Positions 4,375 to 9,561 of a stretch of 22,458 nucleotides of DNA are shown piece by piece; the first letter of the stretch is position 1; each line of letters opens with the position of its first letter. The notes under the pieces are model-generated. The model did not search any database, was not told the DNA's origin, and worked only from the letters and a program-made list of their open reading frames with translations. A program made the position numbers and the translations under genes. This DNA comes from a virus, in the IMG/VR virus record IMGVR_UViG_3300032093_011191, positions 1 to 22,458 of that record. The stretch is one strand, 5' to 3'.

Positions 4375-4578
4375 TTACCCAAACTTGGCGATATTCTTAT
4401 ATTTTTTCTTGATATCGTTTATCTCCTTTATCGCCGAGTCAAATTTTTTCTTGATCTCAGGATCTACCGTAAAGTCCAGTATAGTTCTACAGTTTGGGCA
4501 GACCGATATTGGATTCTTTAGGATGAACGGCAGGTCCATACCCAGAGGAGTCTTACAGAAAGGGCAAGGCAACGGCAT
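4375..4578 (-). CDS. Zinc-ribbon protein in the DUF2589 operon
   Basis: A 67-residue protein with two CxxC knuckles, CPFC near residue 5 and CPNC near residue 27, spaced as in a rubredoxin-like zinc ribbon, followed by a charged helix (PEIKKKFDSAIKEINDIK). One zinc ion should be bound by the four cysteines. Its ATG directly follows the stop of the DUF2589-like gene (TAA then ATG), so the two are almost certainly co-translated. I recall similar small ribbons near DUF2589 genes in Bacteroidota chromosomes, but I cannot verify that here. It may be a structural or adaptor partner; nothing suggests catalysis. Confidence 0.8.
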   Translation of the reverse strand: MPLPCPFCKTPLGMDLPFILKNPISVCPNCRTILDFTVDPEIKKKFDSAIKEINDIKKKYKNIAKFG

Positions 4579-5055
4579 TTACTTTCCGTCTTTGTGTTCT
4601 ATGTTTTGGATGTATGCATCGATGAGTCTCGATACCATCTCAGGTTTGGTGTCAGACTTGAATTTTATCTTTATCTTAGCCATTCCTGACGAGTCTGAAT
4701 TCTTGCCAGAATCGACATTAATCGACTTGATATTGTGAAGCTCTTCTTCTGACTTCTTCTTGAAAAGACCTAAGAGCTCTTTTTTAAGAGTAGATGGCTT
4801 ATTGTCTCCGACTATCAGTCGTGCATCAAACTCTACATCTAGCTCGTCCAGCCCAATCGATGAGTGGTCTGCTAGTATGTAAAGAGGGACGTCCAAGTCC
4901 TTGTTACCCACCTTGAAAGTGGTGGTCTTGGCGTTTCCTTTTTCGTCAAAGTAATTTGATAAGTTGTTTATGTGTTGTCTCTCCGACAACCTTTTAGCTA
5001 CCATGGCGGCCTCTAAGAGGCCGCCAACTAGCTCGTCTATGTTTAATCTTGCCAT
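4579..5055 (-). CDS. DUF2589-like paralogue
   Basis: A 158-residue soluble protein. An N-terminal helix (NIDELVGGLLEAAMVAKRL) precedes a strand region in which VPLYILADHSSIGLDELDVE (56-75) lines up with LPLVPLPSLAITSADIEFTM (90-109) of the neighbouring DUF2589 protein: a VPL/LPL entry, a short turn with Ser-(Leu/Ile), then an alternating strand ending in D-(I/V)-E-F. It ends with strands and a helix that parallel its neighbour. I therefore call it a divergent DUF2589-type paralogue. There is no signal peptide or TM segment. It lies 25 bases after the first paralogue and abuts the zinc-ribbon gene. Function unknown. Confidence 0.7.
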   Translation of the reverse strand: MARLNIDELVGGLLEAAMVAKRLSERQHINNLSNYFDEKGNAKTTTFKVGNKDLDVPLYILADHSSIGLDELDVEFDARLIVGDNKPSTLKKELLGLFKKKSEEELHNIKSINVDSGKNSDSSGMAKIKIKFKSDTKPEMVSRLIDAYIQNIEHKDGK

Positions 5056-5080
5056 TCAGGTTAGATTTAACTGGTGTTTA

Positions 5081-5692
5081 TTACTTGTTAGGGTCAGCTG
5101 TCAATGGAATAAGAGAAGGCTCTAACATCTGTGTCAGATAGTCAGAAAGCTTTAACATTCCTTCGGTCGCAGGCAACTGGTCTGCGTGTACTTTAACGTT
5201 GTACTTAGCCGAGTTATCGGTGCTACGTGTGTTTTCTTTGTGAGTAGCAACGCTTCCAGACATAGAAGCAGAGTACTTCATTCCCCAGAAACCTCCGCTA
5301 ACGGATGCACTGAAAGATCCAGAAGTGTCTGTGCTTGATTTGTCTACTTCTGAAGATTTTACTTCCATCGTGAATTCGATATCAGCCGATGTGATAGCTA
5401 ATGAAGGAAGCGGAACCAATGGTAGCATAGGAACCTTTGAATAAAGAGTCTCAAGAGATTGCTCTCCAGTGTCTCCGTTAGTCATTACACGATTCATTTG
5501 AACGTCTAATGAACGAGCGGTCGTTACGTCTTTACCGTCTTTGTCTTTTTCTGTCACGAAAGCAACTTCACTGATGTACTTCCAAGTGACTTCGTTTAAT
5601 TTAGCTTGTCCTTTAGCCATTCCGATGATCGGGCTAACGATTAGGTCTTCGATTGGAAGTCCTACAAACTGTTGAGCAACATTGTCTGCCAT
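5081..5692 (-). CDS. DUF2589 family protein
   Basis: A 203-residue protein matching my knowledge of DUF2589 (Pfam PF11655). It has an N-terminal amphipathic helix (LIVSPIIGMAKGQAKLNEVT), then SEVAFV, a PMLPLVPLPSLAI segment (88-100) and an alternating strand DIEFTMEVKSS. A low-complexity Ser/Thr/Gly/Ala region (117-150, reminiscent of beta-rich shell or fibre proteins) follows, and the typical C-terminal strand and helix are YNVKVHADQLPATEGMLKL. No function is established for the family as far as I know. A GATAAATAA box lies 55 bases upstream of the start, with a stem-loop between, so it heads its own late operon with the paralogue and zinc ribbon downstream. Confidence 0.87.
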   Translation of the reverse strand: MADNVAQQFVGLPIEDLIVSPIIGMAKGQAKLNEVTWKYISEVAFVTEKDKDGKDVTTARSLDVQMNRVMTNGDTGEQSLETLYSKVPMLPLVPLPSLAITSADIEFTMEVKSSEVDKSSTDTSGSFSASVSGGFWGMKYSASMSGSVATHKENTRSTDNSAKYNVKVHADQLPATEGMLKLSDYLTQMLEPSLIPLTADPNK

Positions 5693-5714
5693 AATATAGG
5701 GTTTTTTTATCTAG

Positions 5715-5741
5715 TACTAACTTTTCAAAACAAGTTTAGTA
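5715..5741 (-). promoter_or_regulatory. Leader stem-loop before the DUF2589 gene
   Basis: TACTAACTT (5715-5723) pairs with AAGTTTAGTA (5732-5741) with one bulged A and an 8-base loop. If transcription begins about 5-7 bases past the GATAAATAA box at 5748-5756, this hairpin would sit at the very 5' end of the mRNA, a position where stem-loops often stabilise messages. It is AT-rich and could also be chance. Confidence 0.4.
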
Positions 5742-5747
5742 TCTTTG

Positions 5748-5756
5748 TTATTTATC
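5748..5756 (-). promoter_or_regulatory. Late-type promoter box GATAAATAA for the DUF2589 operon
   Basis: Exact copy of the motif, 55 bases before the ATG at 5692, the longest spacing of the seven. It lies in the largest non-coding gap of this part, just past the ligase stop. A variant (GATAAAAAA, 5703-5711) lies closer to the start, but the exact box is the better candidate. Confidence 0.6.
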
Positions 5757-7553: not shown

Positions 7554-8603
7554 TTAAAGCCCAAACCTAGTTTTAGTGGCATTGAAGTTGCTAAGCACAT
7601 TAGCCCCACTAAGCGCAGTGTTGTAGATGTGCAGTGCACCAAATCCAAAGTTTCCATAGCCGCCGTCTCCTAAGTTAGTCGGAGACACTATGCCGACTGC
7701 ATAGAAGAAACCTGCACCGCTGTAGTTGTTGTATGGCGTTTGTCTTGCATAAGTAGCCGTTCCTGCAACCGATCCGTTCACGTAAGCGGTCAAAGAAGTT
7801 CCATTGTACACAAAGCCAACGTAATACCAAGCATTCAGCGGTGTTGAGATGCTTGATGTTATGATGTTTGTGTATGGCCACACAGAAAACTTTAAGGTAC
7901 CGTTCACCATTTCTATCTGAGAATCGAGCCAGCCAGTCTTTGATGTCTCCTGTAAGATCACACCGTCTCCCGTAGGTCTGATCCAAAGAAATGTGGAAAT
8001 TACCGTGGAAGTGTTTACTGGAGAGAGCCTAGAGTTTAGGCTACTGTTCATGGTTATCCAATCAGGCGTAGAATTAGTGTCGTCGATCACTAGATATCCA
8101 CCGTCATTTGTAGAAAACTCGACGTTTGCACCAGCTATCGTACCATTAGCATAAGACTGTTCGGCCAAGTTTGAGATGACCGTTCCTGAACCAGGATAAG
8201 ATGCGACTTTACCCATGTCCCAATTTACTATAAGTCCAGCCTGTAGTAAAGGATCGAAGTTTGTCCAGTAGTCGTTTGCAACTAACCAGTCGTATGCATC
8301 ACTTGCTGTGGCCTGGGAAGTCCCACTCAATATTGTGACAATGTCTATTAAAGACTGAGCAGTATCGTCACAGCTCCAAAACTGGACTCCGCCTATGTTA
8401 CCAAGAGGAGTTGGAAAGTCTTCAGTAGGAACGTCTTTGGCTATTATGTAGGCACCGTTTTCTTCTGGCCCCATCCACCAAGTAAGACCACCTGGAGAAG
8501 AAGCTAAGTCTAATGCCTGTTCCTGTATGCAAAGAGTTCCAGTGTTTGAAGTTCCTGAAACACTAGATTGCGTAGGGTTATATGCAAATCCTCTAGTTGG
8601 CAT
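7554..8603 (-). CDS. LamG-domain adhesin paralogue B (tail fibre/receptor binding)
   Basis: I start it at ATG 8603, 24 codons inside the longest frame, because MPTRGFAYNP then aligns with MTSRAFAYNP of its upstream neighbour; length 349. The N-terminal part (1-115) shares a distinctive layout with that neighbour: FAYNP, GGLTWWMGPEE, a TPLGNIGGVQFW strand, then a Trp-rich YDWLVANDYW helix. This is probably the virion anchor. From about 150 it looks like a LamG/concanavalin A-like jelly roll (TFLWIRPTGDGV, NAWYYVGFVYNGTSLTAYVNG). It should sit on a tail fibre or capsid surface and bind host glycans. It overlaps the stop of paralogue A by 11 bases. Confidence 0.82.
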   Translation of the reverse strand: MPTRGFAYNPTQSSVSGTSNTGTLCIQEQALDLASSPGGLTWWMGPEENGAYIIAKDVPTEDFPTPLGNIGGVQFWSCDDTAQSLIDIVTILSGTSQATASDAYDWLVANDYWTNFDPLLQAGLIVNWDMGKVASYPGSGTVISNLAEQSYANGTIAGANVEFSTNDGGYLVIDDTNSTPDWITMNSSLNSRLSPVNTSTVISTFLWIRPTGDGVILQETSKTGWLDSQIEMVNGTLKFSVWPYTNIITSSISTPLNAWYYVGFVYNGTSLTAYVNGSVAGTATYARQTPYNNYSGAGFFYAVGIVSPTNLGDGGYGNFGFGALHIYNTALSGANVLSNFNATKTRFGL

Positions 8604-9561
8604 AAACAGAATAAGTATTTGTATAGATCGAGGAGATTGTTCCAGCCGAAAGCTCTCCCTCGTATATAGCGACATAGTCGATTAGACCCTCAAAGAAAGA
8701 GACGTTTGTCCCAACATAGTGAGAACCGATGAAAGTATTTTCTGCTGTGTAATTTTGACTAACGCTTGTGTTTTGATCTACTTGAACTCCATCGATATAC
8801 AGAGTCATGGTGTTTGAATCACCATTGAAAGTCAAGGCAACAAAATACCTTTGGGATTCAGTCATCGATCCACTAACTAGAGTATAGCTTCCGCCTACTC
8901 CACCATATAAAGTACCTGAATTTATCCAAAAGACGTTATTTTGAGAAGAAACTATGTTTCTTGCTCCTACCGTTGAGAAAGGAGCTATCCACGCAGCTAT
9001 CGAATATGCATTTCCTGAAATAGGCTGTCCAATAGAAGCGTAAGCAGAGTTGAAGTACATGCTAAACAGCTCGATGTCAAATGAAGTATTCGTTAAGGAA
9101 GCGTCGTTGTTTTGGCTAGAAAGATCGAACCATGTGCTTCCATCATAAGGCGAAGGATATGAGGATGAGTTTCTAGCTTCATACAAGGAAACTAGCGTAT
9201 ATGTATTTGTGTATGACGTCCAGTAAGAGTTTGCATGGAGCCAAGTAACGGCTGAGGCAGTATCCACAAAGCTTTGCCCAGTCACGATGTTTGCTAGATT
9301 GATGAATTGCGTGTCGTCAAAGGCTTGGGTTCTCCAAAAACGAACTGTCCCGACGTTTCCAACGGGAGTAGACCTAGTTCCTGCAGGAAAGGTTGTAGCT
9401 ATCACATAACCCAAGTCTTCATCAGGTCCTTGCCACCAAGTATATCCACCAGGCTTTGATGAATAGTCGTTAGGTAGGTCCTCAATCAACAGGTTACCAT
9501 GTAAGATAGTACCAGTCACTGGCACTTCCGATGGGTTGTATGCGAATGCTCTAGACGTCAT
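8593..9561 (-). CDS. LamG-domain adhesin paralogue A (tail fibre/receptor binding)
   Basis: A 322-residue protein with the same N-terminal anchor-like region as the downstream gene (FAYNP, GGYTWWQGPDEDLGYVIA, TPVGNVGTVRFW, VTWLHANSYW). A LamG-type jelly roll follows at about 130-322 (YSIAAWIAPFS, RYFVALTFNGDSNTMTLYID, DGVQVD, then FIGSHYVG). The two genes look like a tandem duplication with conserved anchors and diverged lectin domains, as in receptor-binding sets. A GATAAATAA box ends only 5 bases before the ATG, preceded by an intrinsic terminator, so the mRNA may be nearly or fully leaderless. No Shine-Dalgarno is present. Confidence 0.83.
   Translation of the reverse strand: MTSRAFAYNPSEVPVTGTILHGNLLIEDLPNDYSSKPGGYTWWQGPDEDLGYVIATTFPAGTRSTPVGNVGTVRFWRTQAFDDTQFINLANIVTGQSFVDTASAVTWLHANSYWTSYTNTYTLVSLYEARNSSSYPSPYDGSTWFDLSSQNNDASLTNTSFDIELFSMYFNSAYASIGQPISGNAYSIAAWIAPFSTVGARNIVSSQNNVFWINSGTLYGGVGGSYTLVSGSMTESQRYFVALTFNGDSNTMTLYIDGVQVDQNTSVSQNYTAENTFIGSHYVGTNVSFFEGLIDYVAIYEGELSAGTISSIYTNTYSVYAN

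Follow-up and report, generated by a model that had tools for sequence, protein, structure and literature searches.

The protein family DUF2589 (PF11655) has no known function, as a sequence-only reading of the present locus had stated; prior knowledge was found only in the Pfam entry and in one transcriptome paper, which reports a DUF2589-related gene cluster in Archaeoglobus fulgidus (PMC3949148). Other described systems close to the locus are the late transcription units of T4-like phages, the phage lysis cassettes (holin, endolysin, spanins) and the Type 10 secretion systems. The late box reported for T4-like cyanophages is NATAAATA, which is near the TATAAATA of T4 (PMC2984593), and Type 10 secretion systems are described as lysis-derived protein release (e.g., PMC10847048).

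The virus record in which the locus lies is 22,458 bases long and in all likelihood a fragment; the whole of it is called the window below. The locus contains two DUF2589 genes, A and B, and a small gene, C. Both DUF2589 proteins are far above the family cut-off over their full length, but a paired, ribbon-bearing, late phage cassette is absent from the Pfam entry and from PMC3949148, and the paired cassette appears to be undescribed. Its promoter box GATAAATA fits NATAAATA and is close to the TATAAATA of T4, and relatives of 250–274 kb encode a Gp23 major capsid protein, whereas other clades carry the cassette without the box. Like the genes of lysis cassettes, A and B are predicted to be expressed late, and several loci have lysozyme, holin-like and spanin-like genes around the pair; unlike them, A and B show no catalytic, transmembrane or lipoprotein features, and the pair is also encountered where no lysis genes are near. 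Bacterial DUF2589 pairs by muramidase or lysozyme genes, and Vibrio plasmid pairs by large-toxin genes, recall Type 10 secretion systems, but the bacterial loci have no demonstrated holin/spanin set and the likeness is a resemblance only.

Genes of the cassette and their family membership

The features considered are the following:
4375–4578, minus strand: C, 67 residues, two-CxxC ribbon with a charged C-terminal segment (from the sequence)
4579–5055, minus strand: B, divergent DUF2589 paralogue, 158 residues (PF11655 match, own tree branch)
4753–4761, minus strand: KKK loop of B, codons 99–101, site of the PG_binding_1 insert in relatives (from the alignment)
5081–5692, minus strand: A, DUF2589 protein, 203 residues (PF11655 match)
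5237–5356, minus strand: Ser/Thr/Gly-rich segment, codons 113–152 of A, predicted amphipathic β-hairpin
5749–5756, minus strand: GATAAATA, T4-type late promoter box, 64 bases upstream of A

Protein A matches the Pfam profile PF11655 with an E value of 9.8e-32 (110.9 bits, profile positions 1–153 of 154) and B with an E value of 1e-15 (58.9 bits), the curated cut-off being 23 bits; since its match spans profile positions 2–153, B is a full-length paralogue. The two proteins are 23% identical, and their profile-profile alignment covers 153 columns (E 7e-5) with the strands VPMLPL/VPLYIL and ADIEF/LDVEF in register. The three open reading frames all lie on the minus strand, with gaps of 25 bases between A and B and 0 bases between B and C, and C contains the motifs CPFC and CPNC, both retained among aligned relatives. 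On all these points (two DUF2589 paralogues with common strands, their placement and spacing, and a CxxC-CxxC ribbon) the sequence-only reading is borne out. C matches no Pfam family above cut-off, named ribbon families included.

In none of the three proteins did Pfam or PHROG match the catalytic domain of a peptidoglycan hydrolase, and A and B have no PHROG match of any kind, structural or other. A hydropathy screen of A, B and C revealed neither an N-terminal signal nor a strong transmembrane segment, the top 19-residue hydropathy being 1.36 for A (from residue 87) and 0.95 for B, and the transmembrane helices of a holin were found by this screen in none of the three. Spanin features are likewise absent (no N-terminal transmembrane segment or lipobox, and no N-terminal cysteine), which does not exclude work at the outer membrane. 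PADLOC defence models yielded chance-level hits only, NCBIfam nothing and PDB sequence searches no relative; BFVD contains one sequence relative, A0A516MP19, with 37% identity.

Proteins lacking a signal peptide or clear transmembrane segment, as A, B and C do, would suit a role inside the cell during late infection, as a scaffold, chaperone or regulator that does not act on the envelope directly, C being then a nucleic-acid or protein adaptor. Two-CxxC ribbons are common among nucleic-acid binding proteins, which we counted in favor of this explanation together with the position of the pair by nucleotide-metabolism genes (L153) or recombination genes (L170). It leaves unexplained, however, both the peptidoglycan-binding insert of some B proteins and the repeated lysis-gene neighborhood described below, and we regard it as unlikely.

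Pairing, gene order and age of the pair

A first scan with the A protein of the window recovered 142 viral contigs, including records of 250–274 kb, and one profile scan recovered relatives of A in at least 386. Close relatives, with 74–100% identity, occur in viral contigs up to 274 kb. None of 50,697 named-phage records contains a relative of the A or B of the window; a distant relative matched one unannotated gut fragment. Among the 97 flanked loci, defined as a distinct A with at least 1.2 kb on each side, the distance from A to B is below 1 kb in every case, and the two paralogues are obligate neighbors. C was found at 44/44 flanked loci from T4-like jumbo phages and related clades; the same model of C did not find it in the 53 remaining loci. 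Co-conservation of the ribbon holds for the T4-like jumbo and related phages and fails for the other phage clades sampled, which keep the pair without it.

The gene order of the 44 loci is A-B-C in 19, C-A-B in 18, A-C-B in four and B-C-A in three, so that inherited order alone is insufficient to account for the linkage. The neighborhoods of the cassette vary as well (DNA ligase, lysis genes, nrd genes, RecET), and a linkage that persists through such shuffling and changing surroundings is best explained by a joint function. Every longer record searched (14 virus records and one genome) contains exactly two DUF2589 copies, and these are adjacent. DUF2589 was found in two of 245 genomes, sampled from one phylum, both times as a pair; one of the two pairs is on a contig that bears many phage-like genes. 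Pairing, ribbon co-conservation and the late box are consistent with the suggested complex of A, B and C.

Other candidates for a third partner were noted. The ribbon of the gut fragment L136 scores 21.8 bits with the model of C, compared with 12.7 bits for the best unrelated open reading frame, and it is probably a partner also in this one gut bacterial or phage fragment. A conserved protein of 91–94 residues that belongs to no family follows B-A in L133 (12920–13195), L134 (12842–13117), L132 (9915–10199) and L233 (6687–6968), and may be an alternative third partner replacing the ribbon in Vibrio, Smac51 and L233. A protein of 259–270 residues is a variable third partner candidate of gut Bacteroidota-like loci. 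At many loci of the L170 phage clade an FmdB-like two-CxxC ribbon immediately precedes B (e.g., L214, 5145–5390); it was rejected as a C, with less than 10 bits in the model of C. In L153-type loci nrdA/nrdB are located upstream of the pair, and an alanine-rich, lipoprotein-zipper-like protein of 78 residues follows A-B in 16/17 of them (e.g., L169, 7086–7322). In the gut locus L229 (2956–4956) an insertion that includes an integrase-like gene apparently interrupts the B gene.

When 51 phage and plasmid proteins of the A and B types are placed in one tree, a single label change between A and B is required; the pair is ancient, since the tree separates A from B once. One branch holds 24/26 B rows with a support of 100/97, and the plasmid-borne proteobacterial pairs fall on the matching A and B sides; in the gut loci L136 and L229 the B copies are placed near the A side. 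Across loci, the pairwise identities among A proteins correlate with those among B proteins (r 0.79, a value reached in 0/2000 permutations), as joint descent would predict. Of the two, B is the faster evolving, with a mean identity of 30% vs. 41% for A.

The late-type promoter box

The window contains seven copies of the box GATAAATA, every one on the coding strand, compared with 0.99 expected, and 0/100 shuffles reached seven copies. Six of the copies sit 14–64 bases upstream of genes, which encode A, a LamG protein, a small acidic protein, a GH19 endolysin and two long uncharacterized proteins; the seventh is located 18 bases upstream of ATG 425 of a CHAP peptidase. Upstream of A the box is retained, despite differing surrounding sequence, in 18/21 distinct loci of the same clade at 27–66 bases, where the overall box frequency predicts about 0.03 boxes per 160-base upstream stretch. 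Clades with the C-A-B order mostly have no box. The late-type box announced over the operon is therefore real, and late expression in this phage group is a well-supported prediction. It had further been proposed that the genes are expressed with those of the virion. This restriction is too narrow: the same box stands before the genes of the CHAP peptidase and of the GH19 endolysin, and other clades have the pair beside ribonucleotide reductase or RecET genes.

Some features of the window itself may be added. The CHAP-domain peptidase occupies positions 3–473 of the minus strand, and ATG 425 is its likelier start because the late box at 443–450 falls inside the longer open reading frame. Directly upstream of it, a protein of 158 residues with two hydrophobic segments is encoded at 451–927; the two possibly form a holin-endolysin pair. 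Two neighboring LamG (Laminin_G_3) proteins are encoded at 7554–8675 and 8593–9561 (minus strand), their open reading frames overlapping by about 80 bases.

The box common to A, the LamG protein and other large late genes would also be expected if A and B were minor virion components, placed in the tail tip or baseplate or injected with the DNA; late expression would then reflect assembly, and a peptidoglycan-binding insert would serve wall penetration at entry, a use to which such a domain is also suited when tail-associated. Reading of the sequences by eye places the pair between portal and prohead protease/capsid-like genes in L230 and ahead of tail-like genes in L104. On the other hand, the pair is at least 40 kb from Gp23 in the six larger records in which Gp23 was found and lies outside structural operons in most clades, and the lack of PHROG matches extends to structural families. 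A place in the virion is thus doubtful, though we rank it directly behind the envelope reading developed below.

Peptidoglycan-binding insert, lysis-gene neighbors and the host envelope

The B proteins of L021–L027 and L035 are longer because the LFKK loop is followed by an inserted PG_binding_1 domain; in the two for which Pfam was run, PF01471 was matched with E values of 6e-7 (L021) and 6e-8 (L024). In L043 the order of genes is holin-like with two transmembrane segments, phage lysozyme (PF00959, 2.5e-40), TM/coil and then C-A-B, and L051 and L122 have a similar holin-like/lysozyme/TM-coil set ahead of the cassette; in L054 a PG_binding_1+GH19 gene directly precedes C-A-B. Downstream of the pair of L231, which has the order B-A, come an i-spanin-like gene, a lipoprotein-like gene that overlaps it, a lysozyme gene (8.6e-48) and a large-terminase-like gene, the spanin and terminase labels being given by eye; the two overlapping genes lie at 1622–2381, directly after B-A. 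Comparable arrangements are encountered in Burkholderia stagnalis (A-B-lysozyme), in the Smac51 plasmid L132 (B-A, the protein of 94 residues and a PF11860 muramidase) and in the gut fragment L136 (A, 259 residues, B, ribbon, 159 residues and PG_binding_1/muramidase, PF11860). In the Vibrio plasmids pFP31 (L133) and pVDT1 (L134) the DUF2589 pairs lie at most about 8 kb from annotated TcdA/TcdB-domain genes, and pVDT1 also has an ABC transporter with its HlyD partner within about 8 kb of the pair.

Wall-active genes amount to 19/436 within 2 kb of the cassette vs. 3/876 further out, a count that is biased because some seeds were picked from the neighbors and most matches come from one clade. 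In four jumbo records a recognizable lysozyme is located 8 to about 31 kb away, in one of them only if the record is circular. With the pair placed by nrdA/nrdB in L153 and after RecET genes in L170, linkage to lysis genes is not general. The gene cluster of A. fulgidus, an organism that to our knowledge has no peptidoglycan, suggests that DUF2589 is not tied to this polymer. Taken together, the peptidoglycan-binding insert, the lysis-gene neighbors, the bacterial loci and the missing signals suggest access to the envelope at lysis.

Residues 113–152 of A contain 52% Ser/Thr/Gly vs. 20% elsewhere, and B has no such segment. Family-averaged hydropathy gives a β moment of 1.5–1.6 at 170 degrees, hydrophobic and small polar residues alternate over residues 121–150, and an AlphaFold model of low confidence forms strands 123–135 and 138–150 (hairpin pLDDT < 50). 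The segment had been described as a low-complexity replacement of a loop hinting at an assembly or shell-like role; its composition is as described, but the β periodicity and the hairpin modelled at low confidence speak against a plain loop, and no support was found for a shell. A hairpin between subunits and a hairpin active on a membrane would each fit these features. AlphaFold reached a pLDDT of 35.7 for A with 18 close rows and 54.8 (pTM 0.40) with 59 rows, a long helix (14–44) and the first strands being best defined, and these models are too weak for a claim about the fold. Foldseek of the model against the PDB gave no significant match (best E 0.63), and VIA-align a Z of 2.5 at most. 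Ring and pore proteins among the Foldseek matches are at chance level and were set aside as evidence. A C-terminal Ig-like domain suspected by eye in a gut A protein was not confirmed by Pfam.

The alternating, Ser/Thr/Gly-rich residues 121–150, modelled as a long hairpin, raise the question whether A perforates a membrane as a β-hairpin ring or pore, B and C serving it as chaperone or regulator; this would provide an outer-membrane disrupting step in phages and protein release in some bacteria, for which the large-toxin and ABC-transporter genes near the Vibrio plasmid pairs could be cited. Surface hairpins can, however, give the same alternation, the hairpin is modelled with low confidence and no PDB fold is significantly matched; moreover L231 has spanin-like genes too, so that the pair is not simply a replacement for them. 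We consider such a pore distinctly unlikely, and rank it last, after the scaffold or regulator.

The best reading, to which we assign a probability of about 0.35, is a late heteromeric complex of A and B, with C where present, acting at the host envelope. Family membership, pairing, co-conservation, the late box, the peptidoglycan-binding insert of relatives and the lysis-gene neighbors of several loci are observed, whereas complex formation, location at the envelope and a role in lysis are inferred, as is every functional statement made here. A and B would form an obligate hetero-oligomer, which in this phage group C, as a zinc-ribbon partner, would help to assemble or to dock. The T4-type promoter would turn the genes on late. 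Having no signal peptide, the soluble proteins would accumulate until the inner membrane is breached by holin action or by lysis, and would then reach the envelope, where the complex may engage the cell wall and aid peptidoglycan hydrolases or the escape of progeny, the amphipathic hairpin of A possibly contacting a membrane or a neighboring subunit. That neither AlphaFold run gave a confident model of A counts against this envelope reading.

A wider and rather doubtful proposal is that A and B, with variable third partners (the ribbon in jumbo phages, the protein of 91–94 residues in Vibrio and Smac51, that of 259–270 residues in gut Bacteroidota-like loci), constitute an undescribed envelope-engaging machine of phages and bacteria, a ring or filament that would open or cross the envelope late. 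The underlying finding is real and broader than could be seen from the window: a conserved A/B pair, with a ribbon partner in T4-like jumbo phages. What had been catalogued as a family of unknown function is, in hundreds of phage contigs, an obligate pair of ancient origin; some members have acquired a wall-binding domain, and in this group the pair comes with a late promoter and a co-conserved ribbon. This provides a concrete lead toward a late-infection or lysis function in large T4-like phages, and it links the phage pair to gene pairs of bacterial plasmids near muramidases and large-toxin genes.
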